64,000 bases of DNA from Stenotrophomonas sp. 169 (GTDB taxonomy: Bacteria > Pseudomonadota > Gammaproteobacteria > Xanthomonadales > Xanthomonadaceae): assembly GCF_014621775.1 (NCBI RefSeq), contig NZ_CP061204.1:1694501-1758500 (forward strand), in the 5' to 3' direction. The translations under genes were made by a program, and so were the position numbers. Position 1 is the first letter of the stretch. The number at the start of each line of letters is the position of its first letter. Shown here one piece after another: positions 3,045-55,824 of this stretch. A model generated the notes under the pieces. That model was given only the letters and a program-made list of their open reading frames with translations, had not been told where the DNA came from and made no database searches.

Positions 3045-3154
3045 GTAGAGCCGACTTCAGTCGGCTGGGCGGAGCGCGTGCAACATCAGCCGACTGAAGT
3101 CGGCTCTACCAGGGCAGAGCGCGTGCAACGTCAGCCGACTGAAGTCGGCTCTAC
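3045..3154. repeat. GTAG (SMAG/REP-type) palindromes, three copies, two in a 45-bp direct repeat
   Basis: One forward element starting GTAGAGCCGACTTCAGTCGG at 3045 and two reverse elements ending CTAC at 3109 and 3154. Each is a hairpin with complementary arms AGCCGACT/AGTCGGCT. The last two lie in a duplicated block of about 45 bp (roughly 3071-3109 and 3116-3154) that also carries the flank GAGCGCGTGCAAC. Confidence 0.9.
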
Positions 3155-11595: not shown

Positions 11596-11690
11596 GTAGA
11601 GCCGACTTCAGTCGGCTGCGTTGCCCACAGCCGACTGAAGTCGGCTCTACCCGTCGCCTCTACCCGTCAGCGCAACCCGTCGGCTCTACC
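11596..11690. repeat. GTAG palindromes, one facing pair plus fragments
   Basis: GTAGAGCCGACTTCAGTCGGCT at 11596 and the inverted AGCCGACTGAAGTCGGCTCTAC ending at 11650 form a facing pair. Remnants reading CCTCTACCCGTC and GTCGGCTCTACC extend to about 11690. Confidence 0.88.
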
Positions 11691-14826: not shown

Positions 14827-14956
14827 GTAGCGCCGAGCCATGCTCGGCGAGCGCAGCGGGCTCCCGGCAAGGATCGGTACGGTAGCGCCGAGCCATGCTC
14901 GGCGAGCGCAGCGGGGCTTTTGCAGAGCCAGGGCAGCCGACTGAAGTCGGCTCTAC
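14827..14956. repeat. GTAG palindromes, two direct copies plus one inverted of the second type
   Basis: Two forward copies of GTAGCGCCGAGCCATGCTCG (14827 and 14882) each continue GCGAGCGCAGCGGG. They are followed by AGCCGACTGAAGTCGGCTCTAC ending at 14956, so both sequence types of the element occur side by side. Confidence 0.88.
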
Positions 14957-19126: not shown

Positions 19127-19304
19127 GTAGAGCCGACTTCAGTCGGCTGCTTGGGGGCGACCGCCCGGGTAGCGCCGAGCCACGCTCGGCGAGCGCAGCG
19201 GCAGCGTCATCACGATGCGCGGTCCGGGCCACGATACGAATGCGCAGGACAGCAGCCGACTGAAGTCGGCTCTACCAAGCTGCCTCTACCAAGTCGGCTC
19301 TATC
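19127..19304. repeat. GTAG palindrome cluster of both sequence types
   Basis: GTAGAGCCGACTTCAGTCGG at 19127 and GTAGCGCCGAGCCACGCTCG at 19169 are followed by an inverted AGCCGACTGAAGTCGGCTCTAC ending at 19275. Two decayed fragments (CCTCTACC and GTCGGCTCTAT) extend to about 19304. Confidence 0.87.
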
Positions 19305-26617: not shown

Positions 26618-26839
26618 ATGAAGACCCTGTTCGCGCTCGGCGTGTGGTGCCTGCTGTTCGTGCTGTGCTGGCCGCTGGCGATACTCGCCCTGATCGCGTG
26701 GCCGTTCGTGTGGTTGATCAGCCTGCCGTTCCGCCTGGTGGGAGTGACCCTGTCGGCCGTGTTCGCGTTCCTGTCGGCGGTCTTGATGCTGCCCGCGCGC
26801 CTGCTCGGCGGTGGGCGACAGCCAGCCGCCGCTCGGTAG
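26618..26839 (+). CDS. Small hydrophobic membrane protein (73 aa)
   Basis: ATG 26618 has TAGGAGC at good spacing. The product is almost wholly hydrophobic: LFALGVWCLLFVLCWPLAIL, IAWPFVWLISLPFRL and VTLSAVFAFLSAVLML suggest two or three membrane helices, ending in a short Arg-rich tail. No family is recognised. The stop codon TAG is contributed by the GTAG end of the adjoining palindrome (26836-26839), so the element may have set the end of the gene. Confidence 0.72.
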   Translation: MKTLFALGVWCLLFVLCWPLAILALIAWPFVWLISLPFRLVGVTLSAVFAFLSAVLMLPARLLGGGRQPAAAR

Positions 26840-26904
26840 AGCCGACTTCAGTCGGCTGGCGGTCGTAGGTCATGTAGCCCGCAGCCGACTGAAGTCGGCT
26901 CTAC
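26836..26904. repeat. GTAG palindrome facing pair
   Basis: GTAGAGCCGACTTCAGTCGGCT at 26836 and its inverted copy ending CTAC at 26904, separated by about 24 bp. The first GTAG contains the stop codon of the preceding gene. Confidence 0.88.
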
Positions 26905-35321: not shown

Positions 35322-35738
35322 GCGGGGGACGGCAAGAGCCGCATCCATGCGTGCCTCGTTTCGTGCCATCCATGGCGCGGGACCGCGTCATCGCATTCGC
35401 GCTGCCGCTCCCACGCTTTGCTTCGCAAACCGTGGGCCCCGTCTCACCAGCACCCACACCCCGCCGCTTCGCGGCCGCCCCTGACTCAGGGGCTCCCTCC
35501 GCCCGACGGGTCAACGAGGCCTGTGGTAGCGCCGACCCATGGTCGGCGGAAACCATCAGATCCCATCCCCCAAGAATCCGCCGACCATGGGTCGGCGCTA
35601 CCGAAATCGGGAGGCACCACGGTCCCAAGGCCGCCATGGACCTGTCGAAGGTGGGGCGGGGGTGGGCTGGCGGGGGCGTTAAGCGCCATGGATGGCGCGC
35701 AACGAGGCCCGCAGGATGCGGCTCTTGCCGTCCCCCGC
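35322..35738. repeat. Imperfect 56-57 bp inverted repeat pair (35322-35378 / 35683-35738)
   Basis: The left arm begins GCGGGGGACGGCAAGAGCCG and ends CCATCCATGGCGC. The right arm is its near-identical reverse complement, with a handful of mismatches in the middle. The arms are 304 bp apart and enclose a GTAG dimer. The arms' own ends contain the palindrome GCGCCATGGATGGCGC (35683-35698). Confidence 0.85.
35526..35601. repeat. GTAG palindrome dimer inside the inverted-repeat interval
   Basis: GTAGCGCCGACCCATGGTCG at 35526 and the inverted CCGACCATGGGTCGGCGCTAC ending 35601. Unlike the dimers near 53-54 kb, both hairpins carry the same CCCATGG loop type. Confidence 0.88.
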
Positions 35739-48231: not shown

Positions 48232-50915
<2,684 letters not shown>

Positions 50916-50919
<4 letters not shown>

Positions 50920-52022
50920 GCCGCCTGCTCCCGCTCGCGCGGCAGGGCGCGCGGTGGCAGCCCGGACACGGCGTCGGCGATGGCGCGGATATGCGCGGGC
51001 GTGCTGCCACAGCAGCCGCCTACCAGGTTCAGCAGGCCGTCGGTGGCGAATCCACGCAGCGTCGCCGCCATTTCCTCCGGCGTCTCGTCGTACTCGCCAA
51101 AGGCGTTGGGCAGGCCGGCGTTCGGATGAGCGCTGACGAAGCAGTCCGCTACCTGGGACAAGGTCTCCACGTGCGGACGCATCGCGTCCGCGCCGAGCGC
51201 ACAGTTCAGGCCGATGGAGAGCGGGCGGGCATGCGCCAACGAAGCATGGAACGCCTCTGCCGTCTGCCCGGACAGGGTGCGTCCGGACGCATCGGTGATC
51301 GTGCCGGAGATCATCACCGGCAAGCGGCCGCCGCGTGCATCGAAGACTTCTTCCACCGCGAACAAAGCGGCCTTGGCGTTGAGCGTGTCGAAGATGGTCT
51401 CGACCATGATGGTGTCCGCGCCGCCATCGATCAGCCCTTCAATGGCCTCGCGGTAGGTGCCGCGCAGTTCGTCGAAGCTGGTGTTGCGGAAGCCGGGATC
51501 GTTGACATCCGGGCTGATGGAGGCCGTCCGGCTGGTCGGTCCGAGCACGCCTATGACGAAACGTGGCTTGTCCGGCGTGGTCACCGTCATCGCATCGCAG
51601 CAGGCACGGGCAACAGCTGCGCCTGCCTTGTTCAACTCGTAAACCAGATGCTCAAGGTGGTAGTCCGCCTGGCTGACCGACGTTGCATTGAACGTGTTGG
51701 TTTCCACCAGGTCCGCGCCCGCCTGCAGATACTCGGTGTGGATGCCGGCGATGATCTCCGGCCGCGTCAGCAGCAGCAGATCGTTGTTGCCCTTCAGATC
51801 CTGCTCCTCCACCGGCCCATGATCGCAACCGGCACCGTGCACGTGATGGTCCGCGTGCGTGTCGCTCCCGTCGCTGAAGCGCTCACCGCGGTAGTCCGCT
51901 TCCTGCAGGCCGTGGCGCTGGATCATCGTGCCCATTGCACCGTCGATGATCAGGATGCGCTCGCCGAGTGCGGCAAGCAGGGACGTGGCACGTTCGGGAT
52001 GCAACCAGGGTAGGGCGGGCAC
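50916..52022 (-). CDS. metH: Methionine synthase, N-terminal polypeptide (homocysteine S-methyltransferase domain)
   Basis: A 368-residue protein: [20 protein letters not shown] starts the barrel. The zinc-binding cysteines lie in [11 protein letters not shown] (about 273) and [12 protein letters not shown] (about 337-338). [20 protein letters not shown] matches the homocysteine-binding loop. GTG 52022 is chosen because TGAGG lies six bases upstream, and the regulator stop precedes by seven bases. A TTG start at 52046 would overlap the regulator. A His-rich insertion ([16 protein letters not shown], about residues 53-68) replaces the short loop seen in E. coli MetH and may be a metal-binding feature; its role is unknown. 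Confidence 0.94.
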
Positions 52023-52029
52023 GGCAACC

Positions 52030-52959
52030 TCAGGGTTTGTTGGCAATCAGCGAAATGACTTCGAAATGGGGTGGCCGTTTTTCACGTGTCACCGTTTCCA
52101 GGCTGGATACCTGCAGGCCGGCCTTGTCGACGAACTTCTTCAGTTCTTTGTCGCTGAAGCCAAGATTCACGTGGCCATACGCGTCAACCGCCGCCTTGTG
52201 TTCATGGCGGGCCAGGCTGCACAGCAGCAGGCGACCGCCGGGACGCAGGACGCGCGCTGCCTCGGTGACGGCCTGCGCCGGTTTGGCTGCATAGGTAAGC
52301 GCGTGCATCAGCACGACCAGGTCGAAGCTGCGGTCCTTGAAGGGCAGGGCATGCATATCACCCTCGCGCACTTCCACATTCGGCAGACGGCGCAGGCGCT
52401 CGCTCGCAGCGGCGACCACGCGCGCGCTGGTATCGATGCAGACATAGCGGCTGGCATGGGGGGCCACCAACTCGGCCAGCACGCCATCGCCCGAGGCGAT
52501 GTCGAGCACATCTCCGGTTTCCAGCAGTGGCAGCGCGGTGCGCGCCAGTGCTTCCCAGGTCCGGCCGGGGGAGTAGTGGCGTTCCATGTCGCCGGCGACG
52601 CTGTCCGCCCAGTTCTGGTCAGCCGCACGGCTGGCCAGCACCGAGGCCACGCGCTCGGCGTCCTGGCGCAGCAGCGGGTCATCGCTGCCAGTGCTCAAGG
52701 CATGCCACAATGCGCGCTGCGCAGGATCCAGCTGCGCGTCATCGAAGCGGTAGTACGCCGAAACGCCTGCACGGCGGTCGCGCACCAGGCCGGCTTCCTT
52801 GAGCCGGGCCAGATGGGTCGACACCCGCGGCTGCGCCAGACGGGTGATTGCCGAGAGCTCGGCCACCGTCAGTTCTTCCTGCTCCAGCAGCGCCAGCAGC
52901 CGCACCCGGGTGGCGTCGGCAAACACCTTCAGCCGAACCGACCAATCCTCGAGATCCAT
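52030..52959 (-). CDS. ArsR-family regulator fused to a SAM-dependent methyltransferase domain (SahR-like)
   Basis: A 309-residue protein. Residues 1-90 are an ArsR winged helix ([48 protein letters not shown]). Residues about 120-309 are a class I methyltransferase: [20 protein letters not shown] is motif I and [20 protein letters not shown] motif IV. Such fusions next to metH or sahH genes are known as SahR-type regulators sensing S-adenosylhomocysteine (established for relatives; inference here). It is the first gene of the metH operon. A 32-bp palindrome overlaps the region one base before ATG 52959. Whether the methyltransferase is active or only a sensor is not visible. Confidence 0.92.
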
Positions 52960-52991
52960 AAATATCCACCTATCGCGATAGAGAGATATTT
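52960..52991. promoter_or_regulatory. 32-bp palindromic operator of the ArsR-methyltransferase/metH operon
   Basis: Symmetric layout: AAATATC (52960-52966), 4 bp, TATCGCGATA (52971-52980, perfect palindrome), 4 bp, GATATTT (52985-52991). Twenty-four of 32 bases are in perfect symmetry. It ends one base before the start codon and covers the ribosome-binding region. Confidence 0.78.
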
Positions 52992-53404
52992 TCACCGCCA
53001 ACCGTCTCGTGGTCAAGGCGGTAACGAAACGGGTGTTCAGTGAAACCCAGCGTCGGGGAAGCGTCGGGGACCGGTAGCGCCGACCCATGGTCGGCGAGCG
53101 CAGCGGGCCGTTGGCGGATTGATCCCGCCGAGCGTGGCTCGGCGCTACCAGAGCGTCCGGGACCGGTAGCGCTGACCCACGGTCGGCGAGCGCAGCGGGC
53201 CGTAGGCGGAGAGATTCCGCCGAGCGCGGCTCGGCGCTACCAGAGCGTCCGGGACCGGTAGCGCCGACCCACGGTCGGCGAGCGCAGCGGGCCGTGGGCG
53301 GAGGGATCCGCCGAGCGCGGCTCGGCGCCACCGGGAGCATTTCCCACGCCTGCAAATCGCGTTCCCTGATCGTGACGTGTGGTGCATCCCCGGATACTGG
53401 ACCC
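52992..53404. repeat. Left part of the RAYT island: three GTAG palindrome dimers
   Basis: Dimers at 53074-53148, 53166-53240 and 53258-53331. Each starts GTAGCGCYGACCCAYGGTCG and continues GCGAGCGCAGCGGGC, then ends in an inverted CCGAGCGYGGCTCGGCGCYAC. They are separated by 17 bp reading CAGAGCGTCCGGGACCG. No other gene is seen in this stretch. Confidence 0.92.
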
Positions 53405-53860
53405 ATGTCCAGCCGTCATCTCCAGCGCGGTCGTGCGTCCATCCCCGGTGGGTATTACGTTTTGACCACAGTCACCCACTGCCGCCGCCCGGTCTTCGAG
53501 TTCCCTTGCAACGCTCAGATCATTATCGAATCGCTGCGTGACGTAGAGCGGGCAGCGATCAGCCGCTCGTTCGCCTGGGTCGTCATGCCCGACCATGTGC
53601 ATTGGCTGCTGCAATTGCGTCAAGGCACCTTGGGCGCCTGCATGCAGCGATTCAAATCCCGAAGCAGCCGGTTGATCGGCAGGACGTCTGGATCCGGAGC
53701 GCGGCTATGGCAGCCCAGCTACTTCGATCACGCCTTGCGATCGGAAGAGTCATTGCGTACGCAGGCCCTCTACATCGTGGCCAATCCTGTGCGCGCCGGG
53801 TTATCCGAGAACCTCGACGACTACCCCTACGCCTGGTGCCGCTGGCCCCTGCATCCGTGA
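53405..53860 (+). CDS. REP-associated tyrosine transposase (RAYT, Y1/HUH superfamily)
   Basis: A 151-residue protein of the TnpA_REP family, which binds and cuts GTAG/REP hairpins. The metal-binding HUH motif is MPDHVHWLLQL near residues 60-70. FKSRSSRLIGR is the conserved basic segment. The catalytic Tyr is in ALYIVANPVRAGL near residues 118-130, and the C-terminus ends in the usual DDYPYAWCRW form. The N-terminus RASIPGGYYVLTTVTHCRRPVF is also typical. Reading frame and motifs are intact, so it is probably functional. It sits between three palindrome dimers on its left and seven on its right, the classic RAYT-REP context. Confidence 0.95.
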   Translation: MSSRHLQRGRASIPGGYYVLTTVTHCRRPVFEFPCNAQIIIESLRDVERAAISRSFAWVVMPDHVHWLLQLRQGTLGACMQRFKSRSSRLIGRTSGSGARLWQPSYFDHALRSEESLRTQALYIVANPVRAGLSENLDDYPYAWCRWPLHP

Positions 53861-53874
53861 AAAGCGCAGCGCAG

Positions 53875-54592
53875 GTAGCGCCGACCCATGGTCGGCGAGC
53901 GCAGCGGGCCGTGAGCGGAGGGATTCCGCCGAGCGTGGCTCGGCGCTACCGCAGCGTCCGGGGTCGGTAGCGCCGACCCACGGTCGGCGAGCGCAGCGGG
54001 CCGTGGGCAGGAAGATTCCGCCGAGCGCGGCTCGGCGCTACCGCAGCGTCCGGGGTCGGTAGCGCCGACCCATGGTCGGCGAGCGCAGCGGGCTGTGGGC
54101 TGATAGATTCCGCCGAGCGTGGCTCGGCGCTACCGAGGTGCCAGGATCGGTCGGCGAGCGCGGTAGCGCCGTATCCGAAAGAATTGCGCCAGCGCATCCG
54201 GGATCGGTAGCGCCGACCCATGGTCGGCGAGCGCAGCGGGCTGTGGGCGGAGAGATTCCGCCGAGCGCGGCTCGGCGCTACCAGAGCGTCCGGGATCGGT
54301 AGCGCCGACCCATGGTCGGCGAGCGCAGCGGGCCGTTGGCGGAGGGATTCCGCCGAGCGCGGCTCGGCGCTACCGCAGCATCCGGGATCGGTAGCGCCGA
54401 CCCATGGTCGGCGAGCGCAGCGGGCTGTTGGCGGAGGGATTCCGCCGAGCGTGGCTCGGCGCTACCGAGGTGGCAGGCAGGCAGTGACCGGACGGATTCC
54501 ACCAGCATCCGGGATCGGTAGCGCCGACCCATGGTCGGCGAGCGCAGCGGGCCGTTGGCGGATTGATCCCGCCGAGCGCGGCTCGGCGCTAC
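53875..54592. repeat. Right part of the RAYT island: seven GTAG palindrome dimers
   Basis: Dimers at 53875-53949, 53967-54041, 54059-54133, 54207-54281, 54299-54373, 54391-54465 and 54518-54592, each 75 bp. All begin GTAGCGCCGACCCAYGGTCG and end CCGAGCGYGGCTCGGCGCTAC. Most spacers are 17 bp (CGCAGCGTCCGGGGTCG or similar); the two longer ones hold debris (CGGTCGGCGAGCGCGGTAGC near 54150; GGCAGGCAGGCAGTG near 54473). No gene is seen between the RAYT stop and the acyl-CoA dehydrogenase start at 54676. Confidence 0.94.
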
Positions 54593-54675
54593 CGGACGGG
54601 GTTGTCGCCGCGCAGTCAGCTGCAATCACGGCGCCCCCAGTACAATCCCGTATTCGTTACCCGGGAGGGGTTGTT

Positions 54676-55824
54676 GTGGATTTCAGCTTTACCGAAGAGC
54701 AGTTGATGCTGCAGGACGTTGCGCGCCGCATTGCGCAGGAAAAGATCGGCCCCAGCGCCGAACACCATGACCAGACCGGCGAGTTCCCGCTGGCCAATAT
54801 CCAGCTGCTCGGTGAGAACGGGCTGATGGGGATCGAGGTGCCAACGGAGTACGGCGGCGCGGGCATGGACCCGATCGCCTATGTGCTGGCGATGGTGGAA
54901 ATCGCCGCGGGTGATGCCGCTCATTCGACCATCATGTCGGTCAACAATTCGTTGTTCTGCAACGGCATCCTGACCTACGGCACCGAAGCGCAGAAGCAGA
55001 AGTACGTGCGCGCCATCGCCGAAGGTACGGCCATCGGGGCGTTCGCGCTGACCGAGCCGCAGTCGGGCTCGGACGCCACCGCCATGCGCTGCCGCGCGGT
55101 GAAGCAGGCTGACGGCACGTATGTGATCAACGGCAAGAAGAGCTGGATCACGTCCGGTCCGGTGGCAAAGTACATCGTGCTCTTCGCGATGACCGACCCG
55201 GACAAAGGTGCCAAGGGCATTACGGCCTTCCTGATCGACACCGACAACGCCGGCTTCGGCCGCGGCAAGACCGAGCCGAAGCTGGGCATCCGCGCGTCGG
55301 CCACCTGCGAAATCGAGTTCGATGACTACGTTGCGCAGGCAGGCGACGTGCTCGGCCAGGAAGGCGAGGGCTTCAAGATCGCGATGGGCGTACTGGACGC
55401 GGGCCGTATCGGTATTGCGTCGCAGGCCATCGGCATCGCGCGTGCGGCGTACGAAGCCACGCTGGAATACGTGAAGGAGCGAAAGGCCTTTGGCGCGCCG
55501 ATCGGCACCTTCCAGATGACCCAGTCCAAGATCGCGGACATGAAGTGCAAGCTGGACGCGTCCCTGCTGCTGACCCTGCGCGCGGCGTGGGTGAAGGGCG
55601 AGGGCAAGCGCTTCAGCAACGAAGCGGCCATCGCCAAGCTGACTGCATCGGAAGCTGCGATGTGGATCACCCACCAGGCCGTGCAGATCCATGGCGGCAT
55701 GGGGTACTCCAAGGAAATGCCGCTGGAGCGTTACTTCCGTGATGCCAAGATCACCGAGATCTACGAAGGCACTTCGGAGATCCAGCGGCTGGTGATCGCC
55801 CGCAACGAAACGGGCCTGCGCTGA
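54676..55824 (+). CDS. Acyl-CoA dehydrogenase
   Basis: A 382-residue FAD enzyme of the short/medium-chain type. GTG 54676 is preceded by GGAGGGG; the open frame upstream reads through palindrome repeats and is rejected. DFSFTEEQLMLQDVARRIAQ starts the helical domain. FALTEPQSGSDATAMRCRA and INGKKSWITSGPVA bind FAD. The C-terminal domain holds the catalytic Glu in RYFRDAKITEIYEGTSEIQR, the position used by short- and medium-chain enzymes. Its place in beta-oxidation or branched-chain degradation cannot be fixed, as no electron-transfer or thiolase gene adjoins. Confidence 0.93.
   Translation: MDFSFTEEQLMLQDVARRIAQEKIGPSAEHHDQTGEFPLANIQLLGENGLMGIEVPTEYGGAGMDPIAYVLAMVEIAAGDAAHSTIMSVNNSLFCNGILTYGTEAQKQKYVRAIAEGTAIGAFALTEPQSGSDATAMRCRAVKQADGTYVINGKKSWITSGPVAKYIVLFAMTDPDKGAKGITAFLIDTDNAGFGRGKTEPKLGIRASATCEIEFDDYVAQAGDVLGQEGEGFKIAMGVLDAGRIGIASQAIGIARAAYEATLEYVKERKAFGAPIGTFQMTQSKIADMKCKLDASLLLTLRAAWVKGEGKRFSNEAAIAKLTASEAAMWITHQAVQIHGGMGYSKEMPLERYFRDAKITEIYEGTSEIQRLVIARNETGLR

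Follow-up and report, generated by a model that had tools for sequence, protein, structure and literature searches.

REPtrons with REPIN/BIME clusters are a kind of locus that is already published (PMC2817692, PMC3116915, PMC2613905). BIMEs are modules of inverted REPs and inter-REP segments; one third of RAYTs adjoin a BIME, that of E. coli on both sides, and a rolling-circle model of BIME formation has been put forward as a hypothesis (PMC2817692). In P. fluorescens SBW25, near-identical REPINs stand in tandem together with flanking sequence, a cluster lies beside each of three RAYTs, and the largest ordered cluster holds four REPINs and one REP (PMC3116915). The SMAG arrays of S. maltophilia are dimeric GTAG repeats reiterated with flanking DNA, for example a 72-bp dimer plus 31 bp (PMC2613905), and the 23-nt REP of REPtron Sm consists of GTAG, an 8-bp stem and a 3-nt loop (PMC8266576). 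RAYTs are described as single-copy, vertically inherited genes (PMC8049555), and the relevant part of PMC2817692 reports that no change of place was found for them. Changes of REP class ("orthoswitch") have been reported, and in three strains an additional RAYT occupies a new location (PMC3686654).

The island described here lies in a 64,000-nucleotide stretch of DNA (the window, whose positions are used below) of a Stenotrophomonas chromosome that forms one contig of 4,157,065 bases. It is a locus of the known kind with a lineage-specific REP class. It resembles REPtron Sm in the build of its REP, the SBW25 clusters and SMAG arrays in its tandem repetition of dimers with flanking DNA, and BIMEs in its modular order. 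In contrast to the largest ordered SBW25 cluster, it holds ten units. Its 23-nt REP is absent from the 13 Stenotrophomonas classes (SM1-SM13) tabulated in PMC3686654, and its stem sequence also differs from the SMAG consensus GTAGTGCCGGCCGCTGGCCGGCA (PMC2613905). We consider it probable that the island is a REPtron, an intact RAYT with tandem REPIN/BIME clusters of its own REP dimers on both sides, with the mechanism and origin proposed below. The locus bears on how REP dimers spread, how RAYTs move and how ordered arrays form, and copies of its repeat unit elsewhere, relatives with an empty site and a probable earlier home make its history partly readable.

Layout of the island and its transposase

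The features of the locus are as follows.

52030..52959, minus strand: left neighbour, ArsR-type HTH plus SAM-methyltransferase gene, present in 61 of 61 genomes
53074..53331, plus strand: left REPIN array L1-L3 (75, 75 and 74 bp), two identical 17-bp spacers
53074-53148: dimer L1
53166-53240: dimer L2
53258-53331: dimer L3 (74 bp)
53405..53860, plus strand: RAYT, 151 aa, HUH at H64/H66, catalytic tyrosine Y123 by alignment
53875..54133, plus strand: right array units R1-R3, 75 bp each, two identical 17-bp spacers
53875-53949: dimer R1
53967-54041: dimer R2
54059-54133: dimer R3
54134..54206, plus strand: 73-bp gap, with what looks like a degraded unit remnant inside
54207..54465, plus strand: right array units R4-R6
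54207-54281: dimer R4
54299-54373: dimer R5
54391-54465: dimer R6
54466..54517, plus strand: 52-bp gap, its start resembling the R3-R4 gap
54518-54592, plus strand: outermost right dimer R7
54676..55824, plus strand: right neighbour, acyl-CoA dehydrogenase gene, full-length match at the same place in 58 of 59 relatives read

The island (53074-54592) consists of ten dimers of 23-nt GTAG repeats with heads outward, three to the left and seven to the right of the RAYT. Nine dimers measure 75 bp and one 74 bp, all ten share the linker start GGCGAGCGCAGCGGGC, and within a dimer the left REP has the stem CGCCGACC/GGTCGGCG and the right REP CGCCGAGC/GCTCGGCG. The unit coordinates thus confirm what a sequence-only reading had described, namely ten dimers around an intact RAYT, nine of them of 75 bp and all with a constant linker; the near-constant 17-bp spacers of that reading are borne out in six of eight gaps, the exceptions being R3-R4 (73 bp) and R6-R7 (52 bp), both of which seem to hold worn unit remnants. 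In the repeat families found at the island, the start-to-start step is 92, with the exception of one step of 91. Units differ pairwise at one to nine of 75 positions: the outermost units L1 and R7 are one base apart, L2 carries a single stem mismatch and L3 has a GTGG head. Moreover, a 272-bp stretch over R4-R6 is 93% identical to the stretch over R1-R3. Long ORFs across the array are taken as artefacts of the G+C-rich repeats. An RNA element at the island was rejected, as Rfam gave no match at gathering score in 52500-55200.

The RAYT scores 146.4 bits against NCBIfam NF047646 (cut-off 80), matches Pfam Y1_Tnp and aligns with the solved TnpArep structure 4er8, with Y123 falling on chain residue 115. 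H64, H66 and Y123 are invariant among five aligned RAYTs, and the gene lies between two inverted REPs that are abundant in the genome. In its HUH motif and tyrosine, its NCBIfam equivalog and its flanking inverted REPs it is like RAYT/TnpA-REP group 3 (Stenotrophomonas type). Relative to S. chelatiphaga (G029; the present genome is G000), its dN/dS is 0.11. The repeats form REPINs, two inverted, pairable REPs dispersed as a unit, and within the island these REPs alternate in regular tandem modules, as in a BIME or REPIN tandem cluster. They do not belong to REP class SM10 (GTAGCGCCGGGCCATGCCCGGCG), of which this genome has one exact copy and from which the island REPs differ by paired stem changes.

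This genome has three RAYT-like genes, two of them above the cut-off. A second REP class, GTAGAGCCGACTTCAGTCGGCT, occurs in the window at 3045-3154, 11596-11650, 14935-14956, 19127-19275 and 26836-26904; it flanks another RAYT of this genome (L002, G000:C1:1792450) beside a gene read as gyrA-like.

To the left of the island, a palindromic site, ATATC..TATCGCGATA..GATAT, lies at 52962-52989, its core kept in all eight relatives displayed. Behind the ArsR/methyltransferase gene, on the minus strand, a gene read as metH is split into the overlapping ORFs 48232-50919 and 50916-52046; with the ArsR/methyltransferase gene the stretch covers 48232-52959. We take these genes, together with the palindromic site, to be perhaps a SahR-type operon.

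The island site in related species and the history of the RAYT

The sample comprised 60 congeners, one genome per species, of which 59 were read at the island site (G030, whose gene is cut by a contig end, is not among them, and in G016 the right neighbour matched only partly); the remaining 30 of the 91 genus genomes were searched for the RAYT alone. REPs at the relatives' sites and at RAYT loci were found by a perfect stem of at least 7 bp, so that worn REPs, such as one of G029's, are missed.

The locus is lineage-restricted. In 57 of 59 congeners the intergenic site holds neither a RAYT nor intact REPs, and the same ten dimers in distant strains, the finding that would have spoken against recent local amplification, are not what we see. 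The one congener with a RAYT at the site is S. chelatiphaga, with 76% identity, and intact REPs occur there only in this species and in S. pennii (G051), which has one dimer and no RAYT. By eye, the sequence at the edges of the slot is alike in all three genomes. In S. chelatiphaga, one dimer with a worn right REP lies upstream and five whole dimers and one cut dimer lie downstream, with other linkers than the island and spacers of 15-16 bp. Its units differ by 4.6 positions on average among themselves and by 11.49 from the island, and the unit tree splits the two arrays at 100/100. In this tree units group by array, while inner forks are weak and units of one other locus (L176) fall inside the island's group. 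We therefore find that the arrays grew locally and separately in each species, after their split, because the S. chelatiphaga array is differently built and stands apart in both differences and tree.

The RAYT itself has relatives at another place. In a tree of 41 RAYTs, those of G003, this genome and S. chelatiphaga form a group, (G003,(G000,G029)), with support 95/82, and the sister of this group consists of ten RAYTs that all lie between a small gene and an efflux outer-membrane-factor gene (names of the efflux-locus and neighbour genes are our reading of translations). No RAYT was found at the efflux locus in the four clade genomes G000, G029, G003 and G051. In G003 and G051 the small gene and the efflux gene are direct neighbours, and the interval holds no RAYT and four and two REPs, respectively, one of the two in G051 belonging to another class. 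A search for the small gene found nothing in G000 and G029, and the stretch read next to the efflux gene holds no RAYT. The G003 RAYT occupies a third place, beside an AraC-type gene. The counterpart of that gene has no RAYT next to it in the six other genomes inspected, although this may not be the same place, since the other neighbour of the G003 RAYT was likewise not found in them. The nearest flanking REP heads face the gene at the island and in G003, whereas they point outward on both sides in five of eight efflux-locus loci. At least one GTAG-headed hairpin lies within ~700 bp at all 30 RAYT loci considered, one per genome. As a separate observation, another RAYT (L151, in G027) is flanked on each side by tandem arrays whose REP class differs and whose period is ~214-226 bp.

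Sister RAYTs at another locus in ten species suggest that the RAYT relocated, with a change of REP class. Exact copies of the older-type REP GTAGCGCCGGGCCATGCCCGGCG, counted on both strands, number 102-348 in the ten genomes with an efflux-locus RAYT, 257 in G003, 12 in G029, three in G051 and one in G000. Among six other genomes, four have 0-2 copies, while G039 has 185 and G021 has 110; these two count against the relocation model, since neither showed a RAYT similar to the efflux-locus group, their best RAYTs being 56% and 54% identical to the island RAYT, respectively. Against it, too, G003 has 30 dimers, yet among its RAYTs the one most similar to the island RAYT is flanked by the other REP class. 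The order of events is testable, because four states exist: an empty site in most relatives, an orthologous island with its own array in S. chelatiphaga, a RAYT-less single dimer in S. pennii and a probable older locus.

Dispersed dimers, other arrays and a recurrent spacer

A strict dimer pattern (two 23-nt REP ends separated by 15-45 bases, with a few positions free) matches 137 times in this genome and not at all when reversed. Chance origin of the dimers is rejected on this ground; the reversed-pattern control gave 0 in all 61 genomes. Per genome, there are 137 strict dimers in G000, 35 in G029, 30 in G003, 20 in G051, one in G004 and none in the other 56 of the 61. The dimers have thus spread through the genome, and the composite build, dispersed with them, is not peculiar to the island. 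That dimers occur almost exclusively in the clade of this RAYT is consistent with a putative link between the two.

Several other arrays have no RAYT beside them. One, at 1,164,575, has six units of 79 bp, another, at 2,079,060, five units of 88-89 bp, and three have a 92-bp period (~545 kb, ~953 kb and 3.155 Mb); adjacency to the RAYT is therefore not needed. The island is the longest among the arrays observed in this genome, with dimer positions listed up to 2.77 Mb and 40 of 389 candidates scored, and a longer one is possible.

Compared with scattered dimers of its own build, the island shows no greater uniformity. Per 75 positions, nine island units differ by 4.94 on average among themselves, 17 distinct GACC/GAGC dimers from outside arrays by 3.74, and members of one set from those of the other by 6.93; in random draws of labels, 2398 of 5000 were as uniform as the island, while 153 of 5000 were as strong for island units being closer to each other than to the scattered dimers. 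The island units are thus a related group, though not a strikingly fresh one. An apparent unusual uniformity (11 of 5000 draws) was withdrawn, as the 20 "singletons" compared mixed GACC/GACC with GACC/GAGC dimers, counted one unit twice (L020, L181) and included some units from broken arrays; the differences given above for the S. chelatiphaga array do not depend on these singletons. The claim that the island is far more regular than scattered elements does not hold against these means, nor against the RAYT-free arrays with the same period. As for the recent local amplification that had been suggested, local growth of a ~92-bp unit stands: spacers are identical within L1-L3 and likewise within R1-R3, island units are closer to one another than to the scattered dimers and the orthologous S. 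chelatiphaga array is a group of its own. "Recent" is weak, given the pairwise differences within the island.

We searched for the 17-nt island spacer in 67 units from 53 fetched loci elsewhere in this genome. It occurs in register (at least 11 of 17 positions) in ten units at four RAYT-free loci, ~545 kb, 953 kb, 3.155 Mb and 3.741 Mb, the match at the last covering just part of a longer spacer; shuffled spacers gave a mean of 0.185 units and a maximum of eight. Four loci is the fair count, since tandem units are not independent. Among 25 units scored in 99 loci of relatives, those that match the S. chelatiphaga spacer best are four units of its own island (L238), with scores of 11-16, and the next best, at L235, scores 8; the recurrence has thus so far been seen only in this genome. 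The two islands seem to have related spacers, a match as good arising in 19 of 5000 shuffles. The recurrence suggests seeding of the whole ~92-bp module, dimer and spacer together, at other sites rather than of bare dimers; the shared spacer could alternatively stem from gene conversion between arrays. Seeding and local amplification of a module that bears its spacer would agree with the rolling-circle model that PMC2817692 proposes. By contrast, that paper found no mutual homology among the inter-REP segments from ten clusters, and the SMAG passages of PMC2613905 considered here do not mention spacer sharing between distant arrays.

Two distant arrays (L177 at ~212-300 and, on the minus strand, L180 at ~220-305) begin with a near-identical leader whose first REP is split by a hairpin-rich insert. 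In the window, 35322-35738 holds a nested palindromic element of ~420 bp with a REPIN at its centre (35526-35601); its outer arms are complementary at 100% (25 nt) and at 90% (31 nt). A literature search on such large modular repeats gave no fitting description among the top-ranked papers. The flanking modules of the element recur around scattered REPINs of the island class, and any of three module queries matched at no fewer than 32 loci of this genome and at 32 of 99 loci of relatives, among them S. chelatiphaga, S. pennii and S. tumulicola.

Proposed mechanism and rival explanations

In the reading we hold probable, the RAYT would cut single-stranded DNA at GTAG-headed hairpins and then rejoin it, and the module of one dimer and a ~17-bp spacer would be copied in tandem beside the RAYT. 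Now and then a module may be copied to a new site and amplified there again, units being later added and deleted by recombination and slippage. The RAYT would have reached the divergent intergenic region in an ancestor of this species, S. chelatiphaga and S. pennii, presumably from the older locus beside the efflux gene, while the REP stems changed from CGCCGGGC/GCCCGGCG to CGCCGACC/GGTCGGCG and CGCCGAGC/GCTCGGCG. In a bolder version, which we regard as unlikely, the ~92-bp module would move as a whole. It would leave and re-enter the DNA in one piece, perhaps through a circle amplified by rolling-circle copying, and would have reached at least four sites that lack a RAYT, with renewed amplification there, while the RAYT would itself have moved with a change of REP class and left REPs at its earlier locus. 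If true, mobility of both module and RAYT would be at odds with the picture of RAYTs as genes that stay in place and pass on vertically, and would favour the rolling-circle model for the origin of BIMEs.

The closest competitor, to which we give somewhat less than an even chance, makes the RAYT a bystander and ascribes all growth and shrinkage of arrays to replication slippage and unequal crossing-over in hairpin-rich DNA. In its favour, several arrays of this genome have no RAYT near them, the units include flanking DNA as tandem duplications typically do, a block of three units has itself been repeated and strain-to-strain variation in array length is published for such repeats (PMC2613905); slippage leaves unexplained, however, why a spacer recurs at four distant arrays and why there are almost no dimers outside the clade of the RAYT. 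It is possible, if rather doubtful, that a common ancestor gained the island horizontally instead of by movement within the genome from the efflux locus. The RAYT pS of 0.65 between this genome and S. chelatiphaga, about twice the synonymous divergence of a neighbour gene (0.33), and a related RAYT at a third site in G003 speak for such a gain; yet the flanks of the slot are common to G000, G029 and G051, fast evolution is reported as usual for RAYTs (PMC2817692), and REPs occur at the RAYT-less efflux locus of G003 and G051, weak evidence because REPs are common between genes. The ACAD tree, in which G003 is not placed with G000, G029 and G051, also bears on this choice. Relocation with a change of REP class is the reading we prefer over horizontal gain.

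That selection keeps the array as a structural or regulatory device between divergent genes (a terminator, a gyrase or a nucleoid site) appears very unlikely. In five foldings as DNA, three units proved more stable than shuffled sequence (z -3.1 to -4.5); one of these folds pairs the two REPs end to end and the rest fold each REP or one REP separately. In addition, the array begins outside the promoter-like match of the left gene. However, 57 of 59 congeners do without the array, and the two species with an array differ in its copy number and sequence.
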